43,099 nt of DNA, from positions 1-43,099 of the forward strand of contig JAVHLK010000041.1 in assembly GCA_031082285.1 (NCBI GenBank), written 5' to 3'. A program made the position numbers and the translations under genes. Below the pieces are notes generated by a model. The model was not told the DNA's origin. It saw only the letters and a program-made list of their open reading frames with translations, and made no database searches. Numbering within the stretch: the first letter of the stretch is position 1; each line of letters begins with the position of its first letter. This DNA comes from Desulfomonilaceae bacterium. Its GTDB lineage: Bacteria > Desulfobacterota > Desulfomonilia > Desulfomonilales > Desulfomonilaceae. Positions 2,865 through 42,954 of this stretch are shown piece after piece.

Positions 2865-3434
2865 TCAGAATACATCGGCTGAGAACACGTAAATTTCCGT
2901 GTCATCGTCCATCCACGCATTACCGGGCAGTCCGGCCTTCCGACAGGTCTCCTGGAGAAAGGTTGTGCGATCCCAGTTTCGTTCCGCGGCCACTTGGGGC
3001 AGGAGGAGGCCCGACAAGAAGCCTTTTCTGATCATAATTCCGTGTGTGCCCACTTGCACCTCTTCCGGATTGTCTATTTGCCGCAGTGGGGTCAACACGG
3101 AGATCTCGACGTCCAAGTACGGTAATTCGTCCTCCGTGACCGCTCGAAATCTGGGGTCCCGAAAGGCCGCGGCCTGAGCCATTTCCTCAACCGTCTTGTA
3201 GAGGGGTTCGTCGGCCTGAAGAGACCCTATACAGCCGCGAAGCATTCCTTTCTTATACAAACTGACAAAGGCGCCGTAAGGCTCTTCGAGCTTTTTCGAG
3301 GAAGCCGACAGATAGGGAAGCGGTTTTCCACTACTCTTTGCCTCGATGACGCTGCGCGCAATTCGGAGAAGTTCCGCCTTCTCCTCATTGGTCAGGCCCA
3401 GATCCGTACCGACAAGCTTCTTATTCAGCGACAT
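2865..3434 (-). CDS. AMMECR1-domain protein
   Basis: 189 residues, ATG at 3434 preceded by a strong purine-rich ribosome site (GGAGAAGAGG). The family signature LRGCIG is clear, flanked by 'GAFVSLYKKG' and 'AAAFRDPRF'; the C-terminal 'W-D-R-T-T-F-L-Q-E-T-C' region also fits. AMMECR1 proteins are conserved from archaea to humans with unknown biochemistry; in bacteria they often occur with a Memo-like protein and a radical-SAM protein (AmmeMemoRadiSam). Neither partner is beside it here, so it stands alone between argC and the PP-loop gene. Confidence 0.88.
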   Translation of the reverse strand: MSLNKKLVGTDLGLTNEEKAELLRIARSVIEAKSSGKPLPYLSASSKKLEEPYGAFVSLYKKGMLRGCIGSLQADEPLYKTVEEMAQAAAFRDPRFRAVTEDELPYLDVEISVLTPLRQIDNPEEVQVGTHGIMIRKGFLSGLLLPQVAAERNWDRTTFLQETCRKAGLPGNAWMDDDTEIYVFSADVF

Positions 3435-36151: not shown

Positions 36152-37039
36152 ATGCTGCTTCAGCCCGATTGTATCGGATGCATCTACAAGGCTTCTCTGT
36201 CGGGAATCAGAGAACTGACGACGGACGACGGCCTGACCAAGGAACTCATTTCAGAGATTCTGCGGATCCCCGGGATTACGCGGCCGGCCTGGGATTTGAC
36301 GAGTCCGGAGGTATTTGAGCCTGCCTTGGGTCTCATTTCCCGTTCCTTCGCCACTCCCGATCCTTTCCGATCCATGAAAGACAGGCAGAACGAAAAAGGC
36401 ATGCAACTCCTCCCCCAGCTGAGAAACCTTGTGAAGGAATCCGACGACCCGCTCTCCACGGCCGCGAATCTGGCCATTATCGGCAACTCCCTCGACCTCA
36501 TGTGGTCGGGCGGATCCGTGGACGTTGAACCTCTCGTACGCAAGGAACTCGAACGCAGGCCGGCTCCGAAGCATTTCCGTCTCCTTGAACAAAGGCTCAT
36601 AGAGAGCCGCACGGTCTTGATCTTCGCGGATAATTGCGGGGAGATCGTGTTTGACAAGGTGTTTCTCGAAACCGTCCGTACGGTCTGCGATCCCGAGATC
36701 TACTACGTGGTACGAAGCGTTCCCGCGCTGAACGACGCCACGTTGGAAGATGCCCGTCTCGTTGGTTTGGACGCGCTCGCTCACCCCATCGAAAACGGTA
36801 TTCAAGGACCGTTGCCGGGAACGGTTCTTTCCAGATGTTCGCAAGACGTAAGGGACCTCACTGAGAAGGCCGATCTGATCATCTCCAAGGGCGGCGGGAA
36901 TTTCGACAGCCTTGAAGAAGCGACCCATCTGCACGACAAGATGCTCTTCATGCTCATGAGCAAGTGCGTTCCTTACTGCCGGTATTTCGGCACCGAGATG
37001 TTCGATCCCATTCTGTCTCCACCCAAAAGACCGGTTTGA
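36152..37039 (+). CDS. DUF89 / ARMT1-like metal-dependent phosphatase
   Basis: 295 residues. Starts 'LLQPDCIGCIYKASL' with the CxxC typical of the bacterial and archaeal DUF89 subfamily. The active-site blocks are 'IFADNCGEIVFDKVFLE' (D-N-x-G-E) and 'IISKGGGNFDSLEE' (normally K-G-x-G-N-F-E). Members hydrolyse phosphate from damaged or side-product metabolites such as sugar phosphates. A GAGGA ribosome site lies upstream. The end overlaps nothing; a 464-base gap follows. Confidence 0.88.
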   Translation: MLLQPDCIGCIYKASLSGIRELTTDDGLTKELISEILRIPGITRPAWDLTSPEVFEPALGLISRSFATPDPFRSMKDRQNEKGMQLLPQLRNLVKESDDPLSTAANLAIIGNSLDLMWSGGSVDVEPLVRKELERRPAPKHFRLLEQRLIESRTVLIFADNCGEIVFDKVFLETVRTVCDPEIYYVVRSVPALNDATLEDARLVGLDALAHPIENGIQGPLPGTVLSRCSQDVRDLTEKADLIISKGGGNFDSLEEATHLHDKMLFMLMSKCVPYCRYFGTEMFDPILSPPKRPV

Positions 37040-37503
37040 CCCATCGTGAACGCACGGTCACGAGCTTGCGAATCTCGGCAAGTCCCAGTGGTACGGCATC
37101 GGAGATTGGATTTGCCGCGGGCATAGGTCGCGGCTGCTTCGGACTGCGTACCGCTTGGCGAGGATCAGGAGATTTCCTCGTTCGCCGATAATCCTCCAAG
37201 TCCTCTGGTTCATAGAGCGGAGCGGCGGCACGCTGGTTCGGCTGCTTAAAGACATTCAATCTCTATTCTGACTACGCCGCGGCCGGGATGTCGGTGGGAT
37301 TGCGCTACCGAGGTAGGACAAGCCGGCATTCTCATGCTTAACAATAGGAATTCAGCAGTGATGACGAATGGTCAGCAGTCGAATTGTTCTGATAAAAAGA
37401 TCGTAAGAACGTCACGTTGCGCCTCTTGCTTTTGCGGGAGGATTGACAGCCCGATTTCAATGACGGACAATTGAGTAAATTTCTGTGAGAGGGGGTATTA
37501 GTA
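37040..37503. other. Gap between the DUF89 and rhodanese genes
   Basis: No convincing gene. Open frames here are short and in unnatural frames. It contains a 'CGCGGCCGGGATGTCGGTGGG' like stretch near 37280 similar to the direct repeat at 34481. From about 37340 on the base composition becomes visibly more AT-rich ('TTAACAATAGGAATTCAGC'), which may mark the left edge of acquired DNA. The end holds the ribosome site of the rhodanese gene (AGGGGG eight bases before the ATG). Confidence 0.45.
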
Positions 37504-37818
37504 ATGGCAAACCCTGAACGTATTAGTCCAAAAGATGCTTATGAGAAATCGAACCGCGGAGCGCTCCTCGTCTGTGCTTACGACGACGATGACAGGTTCG
37601 GACGGTTGCACCTCGAAGGAGCCATCTCGTTCACGGAGTTCAGATCTAAACTTCCTTCGCTGTCCAAAGATCAGGAGATCATCTTTTATTGCGCGTGACC
37701 GCAAGAGGCGACGGCTGCCGGTCAGGCAGCCAAGCACCTGGAAAAAGGTTATACCAATGTCAAAGTCCTCGGCGGTGGTGTGGACGGGTGGAAAGCGGCT
37801 GGTTATCGACTCGTTTGA
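37504..37818 (+). CDS. Selenocysteine-type rhodanese (sulfurtransferase) with in-frame TGA
   Basis: 104 residues if the TGA at 37696-37698 is read as selenocysteine (position 65). The frame runs MANPERISPKDAYEK to 'EIIFYCA', the TGA, then 'PQEATAAGQAAKHLEKG' and 'NVKVLGGGVDGWKAAGY', a complete single rhodanese domain with a normal C-terminal half and stop. In cysteine homologues the motif is YCACPxEATSA, so TGA falls exactly on the catalytic cysteine. Both halves are in one frame with no other lesion. A SECIS-like hairpin follows the TGA. Role: transfer of sulfane sulfur (or selenium) between donors; a Sec nucleophile would raise reactivity. Neighbours include a zinc-ribbon MBL-fold protein. 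A simple nonsense mutation is the alternative, but much less likely given the position and hairpin. Confidence 0.85.
37713..37731 (+). promoter_or_regulatory. Bacterial SECIS-like hairpin of the rhodanese gene
   Basis: GGCTGCC-GGTCA-GGCAGCC: a perfect 7-bp stem, starting 14 bases after the TGA, with the loop beginning GGUC. Escherichia coli fdhF SECIS has an apical GGUC loop in which the G and U bind SelB. Here the first loop G is 22 bases after the UGA, inside the spacing used by bacterial SECIS elements. It also encodes part of the protein (residues 71-76), as bacterial SECIS must. Confidence 0.75.
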
Positions 37819-40489: not shown

Positions 40490-41602
40490 ATGCCAGGCAA
40501 CCGCGCCATACGTCTGATAGACGCATTCTCCGGCTGCGGTGGAATGACGCTTGGCTTCGTGCGTCTCTCAAAAGGCTCCTTCAAACCGGTGTGGGCCAAC
40601 GACATCAACCAGTACGCCGCCGACTCCTACAACGCAAATTTTGGAAATCACTGTCACGTCGGAGACATAGTAGACCTACTGGAAGATTCGACCACCAAAA
40701 TTCCCCAGGCAGAGATCGTAATAGGCGGGCCTCCTTGTCAGGGTTTCAGCCTTCTGAACAAGGGGCGTAACGGCGATCCGCGCAAGCATCTCTGGCGGCC
40801 ATTTCTGGAAATCGTCCGAAGGTCGGAAGCGGCCTGTTTTCTAATGGAAAATGTACCTCAACTGCTTGGCTCACCGGAGTTCAAGGCGATCCTGGCCCAA
40901 GCCGTGAGTATGGGATTCTGGGTCGCTTCAGCCAAGCTATGCGCGGCAGACTATGGCGTGCCTCAGACTCGCCACAGGGCATTTGTGCTCGGCTGCAACT
41001 TCGCAGATCCTTCTTGGTACTTCCCGCCGAGGAAGACTCATTATGATCCCACTAACGGCTACTTACAGAGCGCGCCGAACCTCCGAAGCGCCGAATACGC
41101 CGAACATGCGGTACCGTGGACGAACACACGTGACGCGATTGCGGATCTCCCCAGGCCAGAGGGTACCGAAATCCGAAAGGAGCCTGGGCCGCTTGATCTT
41201 CATTTCGGCCGTAATCCCACCGAGAAGAGCATGGCAAGGTATAGAGCGATTCCCGATGAAGGAATGAATAGATTCGACCTTCAAGAGAGAGCGCTGGAGC
41301 TTACTCCGGAATGCTGGATCAAGAAGAAAAGCGGTGGAACGGATCTCTTTGGTCGCCTATGGTGGAATCGTCCAGCTTTTACCATAAGGACAGAGTTTTA
41401 TAAGCCTGAGAAGGGCCGGTACCTTCATCCAGAGCAACACCGACCCATAACCCACCGAGAGGCGGCCCGATTCCAATCCTTCCCAGATGACTTCGTTTTC
41501 AAGGGAACCAAGATCGAGATAGCCAAGCAGATAGGGAACGCCGTGCCTCCGTTGTTAGCGGCGAGCATAGCCGACGTCATTCACGAAATGTTCCTGGATT
41601 GA
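40490..41602 (+). CDS. DNA (cytosine-5-)-methyltransferase, type II R-M
   Basis: 370 residues. Methylates cytosine at C5 within a target site. Motif I is 'DAFSGCGGMTLGF' (11-23), motif IV 'GGPPCQGFS' with the catalytic C83, motif VI 'MENVPQLL' (E120-N121-V122), motif VIII 'QTRHRAFVLG', motif IX 'RPAFTIRTE' and motif X 'IGNAVPP'. The variable target-recognition region is about 180-300. It lies nine bases before vsr and 410 before the HNH endonuclease, so the three form a restriction-modification cassette, probably expressed as one operon. Confidence 0.95.
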   Translation: MPGNRAIRLIDAFSGCGGMTLGFVRLSKGSFKPVWANDINQYAADSYNANFGNHCHVGDIVDLLEDSTTKIPQAEIVIGGPPCQGFSLLNKGRNGDPRKHLWRPFLEIVRRSEAACFLMENVPQLLGSPEFKAILAQAVSMGFWVASAKLCAADYGVPQTRHRAFVLGCNFADPSWYFPPRKTHYDPTNGYLQSAPNLRSAEYAEHAVPWTNTRDAIADLPRPEGTEIRKEPGPLDLHFGRNPTEKSMARYRAIPDEGMNRFDLQERALELTPECWIKKKSGGTDLFGRLWWNRPAFTIRTEFYKPEKGRYLHPEQHRPITHREAARFQSFPDDFVFKGTKIEIAKQIGNAVPPLLAASIADVIHEMFLD

Positions 41603-41610
41603 GGCTGAGA

Positions 41611-42047
41611 ATGGCCGACGTCCTCCCGTCGGGGGAGCGGAGTCAGATCATGTCCCGCGTCAAAGGCGCTGATACCGGCCGAGAGCTGCTAGTTCGTTCA
41701 ATAATTCACCGTATGGGGTATCGCTTTCGTGTCCATCACCGAGATTTGCCAGGCAGTCCAGACATAGTTCCACCCCGACATCGCGAGGTGATCTTTGTGC
41801 ATGGCTGCTTCTGACGTGGACACGAGGGATGCCGACGCGCGAAACGCCCCGCTACCAATGAGACTTTTTGGAATAACAAGCTTGATGGCTATATAGAAAG
41901 AGACAAGCGATTCAAGACGGAACTCCGCCGACGGGGTGGAAGGTTCTTGCGGTGTGGGGATGCGAAACCCACATACCAGAGAAGCTAATCTCAACGCTGA
42001 GCACTTCTTTAGATGAGCAATCAAACAAAAGCGAGCCGGCGAGCTGA
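41611..42047 (+). pseudogene. vsr: Very-short-patch-repair endonuclease gene, disrupted
   Basis: From the ATG at 41611: 'MADVLPSGERSQIMSRVKG', then 'TGRELLVRSIIHRMGYRFR', 'HHRDLPGSPDIV' and 'VIFVHGCF'. At 41812-41814 there is TGA where Vsr has the conserved tryptophan of HGCFWH, i.e. TGG to TGA. The frame continues '...GHEGCRRAKRP...NETFWNNKLDGYIERDKRFKTEL'. Then a one-base loss near 41932-41940 shifts the frame: the next frame reads 'WKVLAVWGCETHIPEKL'. Vsr nicks T:G mismatches that arise when 5-methylcytosine deaminates, and commonly accompanies C5 methyltransferases. Two lesions make it inactive, unless they are sequence errors. Confidence 0.85.
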
Positions 42048-42954
42048 CCCTGAAAGGCTTCGCCTCAAGATTGCAGAGCTGATCGAAAACTTCGAAGCGG
42101 GACTCCGATCAGACGAGCTTCGGAAGAAAGTGCTCGCTCTGGTCCCCGTGTTTCGTGGTTTGCGGAACCTGGGCAAGATGCTGATCCCAACGGAATATGC
42201 ATCCGCCGCTAGAGACCGAATTCTATACTACTTCCGCAAGTATCCCCAGACAGTCATCGAGGGCGACGAATTGCTCGTCGTGTCGGGGATTCAGGAGTAC
42301 GCGAGGCGGGTGCGTGAGCTACGTGTGCAGTTTGGGTGGGCTATTGCCAGCGGGGTCACGATCAAAGAAATGAGCGAGGCCGAACATGCTGAACTGCCGG
42401 ACGATTTTACGAGAATGAAGACCAGCCAGTATGTGTTACTGAATGAAGACCAAGATCGAGAGGCGGCGCTTCGCTGGAATACGGCCAATACCATTCGTAA
42501 GGAACGTGGCTCTGTGCGTGACAAGATTCTGAGGTTTTTTCGGGCTAACGTCGGTCGGAAAGTCACTGGTGAGGAACTGCGCTATGTAGCAGGAAACAAG
42601 ACAGAGTGGGCAAGGCGTGTACGGGAGCTGCGGACTGAATTTGGTTGGCCCGTAGCAACCAAGTCAACCGGAAGGCCGGATCTTGGAATCGGGGTCTACG
42701 TGCTACAGGCGGATCGGCAGAGTCCTGAACATGACCGGCATATTCCTGATGATGTCCGTCGCGAGGTCTTGCGGCGCGATGGATACAGGTGCAGCGACTG
42801 TCACTGGTCGCACGACGAATGGAACCCGTCCGATCCTCGACACCTTGAGCTGCACCACGTGAAACCTCATGCCAAAGGCGGAGAGAATGTCAAAGAGAAT
42901 CTGAAAACTCTCTGTACCGTCTGCCATGACAAGCTGCACAAGAAAGAGAAGTAA
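42013..42954 (+). CDS. HNH restriction endonuclease with duplicated DNA-binding module
   Basis: 313 residues. The C-terminus holds an HNH nuclease: 'RREVLRRDGYRCSDC' (C260, C263), 'HLELHHVKPHAKGGEN' (H281-H282) and 'CTVCHDKLHK' (C301, C304). Two internal repeats precede it: 'ARDRILYYFRKYPQTVIEGD'...'EYARRVRELRVQFGWAI' (about 66-111) and 'VRDKILRFFRANVGRKVTGE'...'EWARRVRELRTEFGWPV' (about 168-214), each likely a winged-helix-type DNA reader, and each ending in a 'YVL' strand. The start overlaps the damaged vsr frame. Adjacent methyltransferase makes it the restriction enzyme of the cassette; recognition site unknown. Confidence 0.9.
   Translation: MSNQTKASRRADPERLRLKIAELIENFEAGLRSDELRKKVLALVPVFRGLRNLGKMLIPTEYASAARDRILYYFRKYPQTVIEGDELLVVSGIQEYARRVRELRVQFGWAIASGVTIKEMSEAEHAELPDDFTRMKTSQYVLLNEDQDREAALRWNTANTIRKERGSVRDKILRFFRANVGRKVTGEELRYVAGNKTEWARRVRELRTEFGWPVATKSTGRPDLGIGVYVLQADRQSPEHDRHIPDDVRREVLRRDGYRCSDCHWSHDEWNPSDPRHLELHHVKPHAKGGENVKENLKTLCTVCHDKLHKKEK

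Follow-up and report, generated by a model that had tools for sequence, protein, structure and literature searches.

Rhodaneses take sulfane sulfur onto a cysteine of their active-site loop as a persulfide. Rhodaneses containing selenocysteine (Sec) were recorded in the Sargasso Sea and GOS surveys (PMC1088965, PMC2398784), and the accessible text of a 2026 review distinguishes form 1 (UxxS), form 2 (UxxG), form 3 (CxU, family NF041203, with one Sec), form 4 (UxxG), and form 5 (TsoB) (PMC13188914). The CxU form also appears in the accessible part of a 2022 review (PMC9312934), and both reviews give TKB26178.1 as its example. Outside the rhodaneses, CxU is described as a redox active motif of human SELENOF in the accessible sections of PMC9304195. 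The initial annotation of the locus described here had mentioned Sec rhodaneses in bacterial selenoproteome surveys, and the accessible parts of these surveys and reviews confirm that statement.

The window, a stretch of 43,099 nucleotides from a Desulfomonilaceae bacterium, carries a gene for a rhodanese-like protein of 104 residues plus stop at 37504..37818, which was delimited by translation, Pfam, and colinear homologues; this gene and the features of it described below lie on the forward strand. The frame runs from an ATG at 37504 to a TGA at 37816-37818, and its sole internal stop is the TGA of codon 65 (37696..37698). With Cys written for Sec, as was also done for the structural model, the read-through product matched PF00581 (Rhodanese) from residue 9 to residue 99 with 43.9 bits versus a gathering cut-off of 22.2 (E 3.4e-11), so that both halves form one domain, and the homologues were colinear with the protein across most or all of its length. 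The coordinates and frame given in the initial annotation, its placing of the TGA inside a rhodanese, and the continuation of the second half in frame to a normal stop were all correct. A Shine-Dalgarno-like AGAGGGGG (37488..37495) was read from the sequence 8 nt 5′ of the ATG. Farther upstream, a weak promoter-like match, TTGACA-17-GACAAT (37443..37471), is no evidence of function, with one such match found versus 0.7 expected by chance.

Codon 65 was compared across several sets of relatives. Among 42 loci in the genome collection, it was TGA in 28 and TGC in four (L036-L039), and the remaining ten (L041-L050) were more distant, with no aligned Cys, an uncovered codon, or no re-alignment match. 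Matches at 1e-12 were found in nine of 148 relatives, all nine matches having an in-frame TGA, and 395 phylum genomes yielded 28 matches at 1e-20 in 27 genomes, each with one or two in-frame TGA codons. In a tree of 58 distinct proteins, the window gene fell into a clade of 54 rows (support 96/95), which comprised 46 CxU proteins, seven UxU proteins, and one row ending before codon 65; three CxC proteins and the CxU protein L107 fell outside, L107 adjoining the clade. Codon 65 was TGA in 53 of the 53 distinct clade proteins covering it, a count that rests on the tree rows, whose choice was blind to this codon and left out 16 named loci (two re-fetched copies of the window gene and 14 distant rhodaneses), identical proteins, and rows under 60 residues (L039). 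The 53-row alignment used for the hairpin analysis below required TGA by construction and cannot show TGA to be universal; 11 loci with identical 48-nt rows were dropped before counts were made. As the search tools read through or penalise stops, a Cys form should be no harder to find.

This constancy agrees with the initial judgment that a chance nonsense mutation is improbable here. The alternation of Cys and TGA that had been proposed as a check on codon 65 was not seen within the clade, Cys occurring at this place only in more distant rhodaneses, and it was codon 63 that alternated in the clade (Cys in 46 and TGA in seven of the proteins covering both codons). Terminal stops of clade-type genes were mixed, with TGA in 23, TAA in 18, and TAG in 10, together 51 of the 52 genes counted after 10 re-fetched loci and all rows that stopped short of residue 94 had been set aside; the other one had no terminal stop within 40 codons.

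Comparison with seven relatives gave a pN of 0.17-0.27 and a pS of 0.58-0.77 downstream of the TGA, and a pN of 0.17-0.29 and a pS of 0.71-0.82 upstream. The second half of the gene is under purifying selection much like the first. A decaying downstream half had been named at the outset as an outcome that would count against a selenoprotein, and no sign of it was seen against these seven relatives.

A bSECIS-like hairpin, GGCTGCC-GGTCA-GGCAGCC, was recognised by folding, covariation, and published criteria at 37713..37731, with its loop at 37720-37724. It has 7 bp, a 5-nt loop (GGUCA), 21 nt from the TGA to the loop, and a folding energy of -14.2 kcal/mol. The accessible text of PMC13188914 gives a loop of 3-9 nt, a stem of 4-16 bp, a spacing of 16-37 nt, and an energy of at most -7.5 kcal/mol for bSECIS elements, as well as a G among the first two loop positions (section 5), and the window hairpin falls within all of these. 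The 60-nt stretch with the hairpin had a z of -3.0 versus shuffles. In a gap-free alignment of 53 distinct TGA-bearing sequences, 83.6% of the hairpin cells paired, and both-side changes occurred in 48 cells versus 27.0 after shuffling, a value reached by 0 of 500 shuffles; with the partner slid, they numbered 1-17. Four of five covariation measures beat every shuffle, and 18 of 500 shuffles equalled the remaining one (further pair types); relatedness alone can beat shuffles of this type. The outer two stem pairs were unpaired in 29 and 23 of the 53 sequences, and the conserved core is therefore five pairs; RNAalifold alone predicted only the four apical pairs.

Codon usage points the same way as the covariation. 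In 62 rows, re-fetched copies included, Ala72 was GCC in 59 and Ala75 was GCA or GCG in 59, the third base of both codons being a stem position, so that the synonymous signature agrees with the hairpin. Codon 74 contributes its first two bases to the loop and was CAG, CGG, or CTG in 46 of the 62 rows, the encoded residues being chemically unlike and yet sharing C-N-G in their codons. When contiguous hairpins were considered, 38 of 53 reached the published -7.5 kcal/mol and 47 reached -5 kcal/mol, whereas five were weaker than -5 kcal/mol and L088 had no qualifying hairpin; when the whole 45 nt 3′ of the TGA was folded, 50 of 53 reached -7.5 kcal/mol. A search of the window with Rfam at the gathering threshold, in which a bSECIS model may be lacking, gave no match.

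The own genome, a 5.6-Mb assembly of 314 contigs (99.9% complete and 4.18% contaminated), encodes the decoding machinery. Its tRNA-Sec scored 71.4 bits versus a 47-bit cut-off and was also called by ARAGORN as tRNA-SeC with anticodon TCA, and SelB (393.9 bits), SelA (598.2 bits), and SelD (366.4 bits) each scored over the cut-off. All four components that the initial annotation had suggested looking for were thus present, which excludes refutation by missing Sec machinery. The SelD gene (L077, contig C177 29715-30635, minus strand) has one in-frame TGA, which makes this SelD a probable selenoprotein too. That the rhodanese gene co-occurs with tRNA-Sec was rejected as weak support, because nearly all genomes of the phylum sample have a tRNA-Sec (351 of 395) and its presence in 26 of 27 carriers there says little. 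In the other collection, a tRNA-Sec match was found in only 20 of 28 carriers, and SelB in 13 of 13 genomes checked, eight without a tRNA-Sec match among them. One locus of a bin recorded as chromosome (L016) has the TGA gene, a full SelB, and a weak hairpin of -4.7 kcal/mol, and gave no tRNA-Sec match at 1e-8.

The machinery, the covarying bSECIS-like hairpin, the constant TGA, and the purifying selection downstream bear out the selenoprotein reading of the initial annotation. UGA codon 65 is almost certainly decoded as Sec, which SelB and tRNA-Sec would insert under the direction of the hairpin just 3′ of it. A gene that standard annotation would likely truncate or call a pseudogene is hence very probably a real selenoprotein.

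The active-site loop reads FYCAU, which contains the C-x-U motif of form 3. The TGA had initially been assigned to the catalytic-cysteine position, but both alignment and model put Cys63 (TGC, 37690..37692) there and Sec two residues later. In an AlphaFold2 model (Cys for Sec, pLDDT 94.4), Cys63 directly follows strand 59-62. In profile alignments, the family's YC matched that of both 6mxv and BH2092, and column 65 fell in a two-residue gap or on Gly; the best domain of 1yt8, the fourth match shown, has Asp in the Cys63 column. The closest structure was that of E. coli GlpE (Z 15.6, rmsd 2.3, 101 aligned). Furthermore, a second rhodanese with an in-frame TGA in the own genome (L063, contig C8 1400-1827, minus strand) reads VIVYUAVGGRSR, with Sec at the nucleophile position itself, that is, in the place of Cys63. 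Taken together, the model, the alignments, and the comparison with L063 point to a C-A-U pair with Cys63, in which Sec in all likelihood sits at nucleophile +2. The assignment of the nucleophile position to Cys63 is supported by alignment and strand position, its nucleophilicity being predicted. Cys24 (TGT, 37573..37575) and Tyr26 were invariant in 31 of 31 covering rows; they belong to a CxY motif, usually VCAY, that in the clade occupies the place of DVR in L107 and classical rhodaneses. As for L063, its TGA is followed by a hairpin, its C-terminal part gave weak matches to ferritin-like families (MbfA, EncB), and it looks like the known UxxG form.

Seven homologues (L012, L026, L029, L035, L040, L099, and L101) have a second TGA at codon 63, and their aligned stretches contain no further internal stop. 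On the tree, UxU needed six changes, at least three of them forced by well-supported branches, and probably arose more than once, with the limits that the alignment has 105 columns, that the bootstrap had not settled, and that three changes could equal one gain plus two losses. L026 is a near-copy of L035, and L040, whose match of 290 nt is not a multiple of three and may contain a frameshift, is the least trusted of these rows. SelB was found in the genomes of all seven carriers and tRNA-Sec in five. The loop follows codon 63 at a distance of 27 nt, which this hairpin's range of 16-37 nt also covers, and the hairpins of six of the seven reached -7.5 kcal/mol (L029 only -4.5 kcal/mol); one hairpin apparently serves both UGA codons in these members. 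Sec/Cys exchange typically shows itself in repeated changes from Cys to TGA at exactly one codon, here codon 63, and this suggests a chemically active residue 63.

We consider it fairly probable that these proteins hold two Sec residues in one loop (U-x-U), which would have originated repeatedly from Cys, depend on a single SECIS, and run a diselenide cycle. If so, the UxU rhodanese would be a double-selenium centre for sulfur or selenium transfer. The UxU protein L012, from a Nitrospiraceae bin, reads past the rhodanese after position 3312 (GYDAVAYF...) with no stop within 40 codons, and the extension looks like what we take to be a YHS-type domain. A UxU rhodanese was not found in a search of mainly openly accessible literature that included reviews of prokaryotic selenoproteomes, and none is named in the accessible text of PMC13188914 on UxxU, CxU, and multiple Sec. 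With CxU and UxU forms both occurring in nature, the contribution of a second selenium to sulfane-sulfur chemistry can be tested directly, as can the ability of one SECIS to serve two close UGA codons.

The gene is patchily spread. No match at 1e-12 was found in the 17 same-family genomes of the relatives set (G001-G017), and carriers occurred in records labelled Nitrospirota, Acidobacteriota, Planctomycetota, Synergistota, Myxococcota, Pseudomonadota, and Thermodesulfobacteriota, many of them metagenome bins; this pattern suggests horizontal transfer or repeated loss. The loci of the genome collection include cultured carriers, among them a Geomonas strain and Desulfofustis glycolicus DSM 9705. 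Viral contigs gave six pattern matches and no relative, and plasmids gave ten records, all under 60% identity. Ten neighbour clusters were common to three or more loci. Most of them reflected Geomonas synteny, although one of these also took in L104 as a stray; another joined the close relatives L084, L089, and L090; and another, presumably an FHA-like protein, lay near L016, L028, and L040 at -1596, -815, and +2344. For 40 loci, with none from L105, 124 neighbour ORFs were compared with Pfam, and no family of the best 25 of 116 matched more than two of them; these ORFs were longest frames and surely included shadow ORFs in GC-rich genomes. The absence of a recurrent neighbour gene pointing to a substrate is a negative hint only. 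In the window itself, an ARMT1-like domain protein (PF01937, E 1.3e-44) is encoded at 36152-37036, about 465 nt upstream of the selenoprotein gene, and 40490-42951 encodes a C-5 cytosine DNA methylase (PF00145) and, after it, an HNH nuclease (PF01844), possibly a restriction-modification pair.

The best explanation of the whole, to which we assign a probability of roughly 0.6, is a Sec-decoded single-domain rhodanese whose C-A-U site acts as a reductive sulfurtransferase. A small donor, for instance polysulfide, thiosulfate, or a persulfide, would pass sulfane sulfur (or selenium) to Cys63. Sec65 would then attack the Cys63 persulfide, giving sulfide (or selenide) and a Cys63-Sec65 selenenylsulfide, which a thioredoxin-like reductant would reopen, and the invariant Cys24 might provide a third thiol or an exit route. 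Such an enzyme would be a sulfane-sulfur reductase and not a plain thiosulfate:cyanide sulfurtransferase. That the labour is divided in just this way, Cys63 taking the sulfur and Sec65 resolving, we regard as an evenly poised proposal.

The roles of the two residues could be reversed, with Sec65 as the sulfur-accepting nucleophile, as in the initial annotation, and Cys63 resolving the selenenylpersulfide or being auxiliary. At neutral pH, Sec is a stronger nucleophile than Cys, its presence at codon 65 in all 53 covered clade proteins makes this the more constrained selenium site, and the loop, which seems two residues longer than that of 6mxv, could put residue 65 in the anion pocket. However, the canonical position straight after strand 59-62 is held by Cys63, which aligns with the YC of 6mxv and BH2092, Sec immediately follows VIVY in L063 of the own genome, in the place of Cys63, and codon 63 itself is TGA in seven homologues; the reversal of roles is a serious alternative, if a rather doubtful one. 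Less probable still, the CxU motif and Cys24 could bind a soft metal or metalloid, or carry selenium to SelD, and form no site for sulfur transfer or redox chemistry. The invariance of Cys24 and the continuation of L012 into an apparent YHS-type domain would fit such a role. Likewise, according to the accessible part of PMC11818150, SELENOP is said to bind Cd2+ through CXU, UXC, or UXU motifs. The rhodanese fold and the catalytic-loop position are kept, though, and no selenium-metabolism family appeared among the best 25 of 116 neighbour families, which makes a binding or carrier function improbable.

For a nonsense mutation, an assembly error, or a pseudogene speak only the stop itself and the origin of the window from a 314-contig assembly; this explanation was rejected on the covariation of the SECIS, the TGA shared by all 53 covered clade proteins, and the purifying selection downstream, and its probability is negligible. 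Finally, Sec UGA codons compete with termination, and the UGA could on that ground be a selenium-dependent switch, the 64-residue product made without selenium having a role of its own. That product would lack the C-terminal half of the fold along with the greater part of the active-site loop, no finding pointed to a stable short domain, and we hold a switch to be highly improbable.

Read as a reductive sulfurtransferase with a C-A-U site, the window protein can be set beside the known systems. Thiosulfate sulfurtransferase GlpE of E. coli (1gmx), the structure with the highest Z (15.6 over 101 residues), shares 22-24% identity with it, has no Sec, and presumably uses a single catalytic Cys. 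Forms 1 (UxxS) and 2 (UxxG) likewise carry Sec in the rhodanese domain, but in the UxxG-like L063 it lies two residues before the place of the window's Sec65. Form 3 (NF041203, rhodanese_LYCAU) shares both the single rhodanese domain and the C-x-U in the active-site loop. Membership of the window protein in NF041203 was nevertheless rejected, with 56.7 bits versus a cut-off of 115; six other clade members scored 53.3-63.7 and the three CxC relatives outside the clade 59.7-77.7, also below the cut-off, whereas L107 passed with 121.1. The L107 gene (1501-1830, minus strand) has its TGA and a hairpin at the same distance as in the window, and this hairpin, at -6.1 kcal/mol, falls short of the published limit; the layout may be common to both CxU groups. 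In contrast, L107 reads LDVR where clade members have CxY, usually VCAY, and form 3 has one Sec according to the accessible text of PMC13188914, whereas seven clade members show two TGA codons. The window protein belongs to a separate clade, marked by its constant CxY, whose tested members score below the cut-off of the curated CxU model; an earlier survey may already have recorded a member of this clade, TKB26178.1 being a candidate. Human SELENOF (Sep15) resembles the window protein in using C-x-U as a redox pair, as far as the accessible text of PMC9304195 describes it, but does so in a thioredoxin-like domain of the endoplasmic reticulum, whose fold differs from that of a rhodanese.
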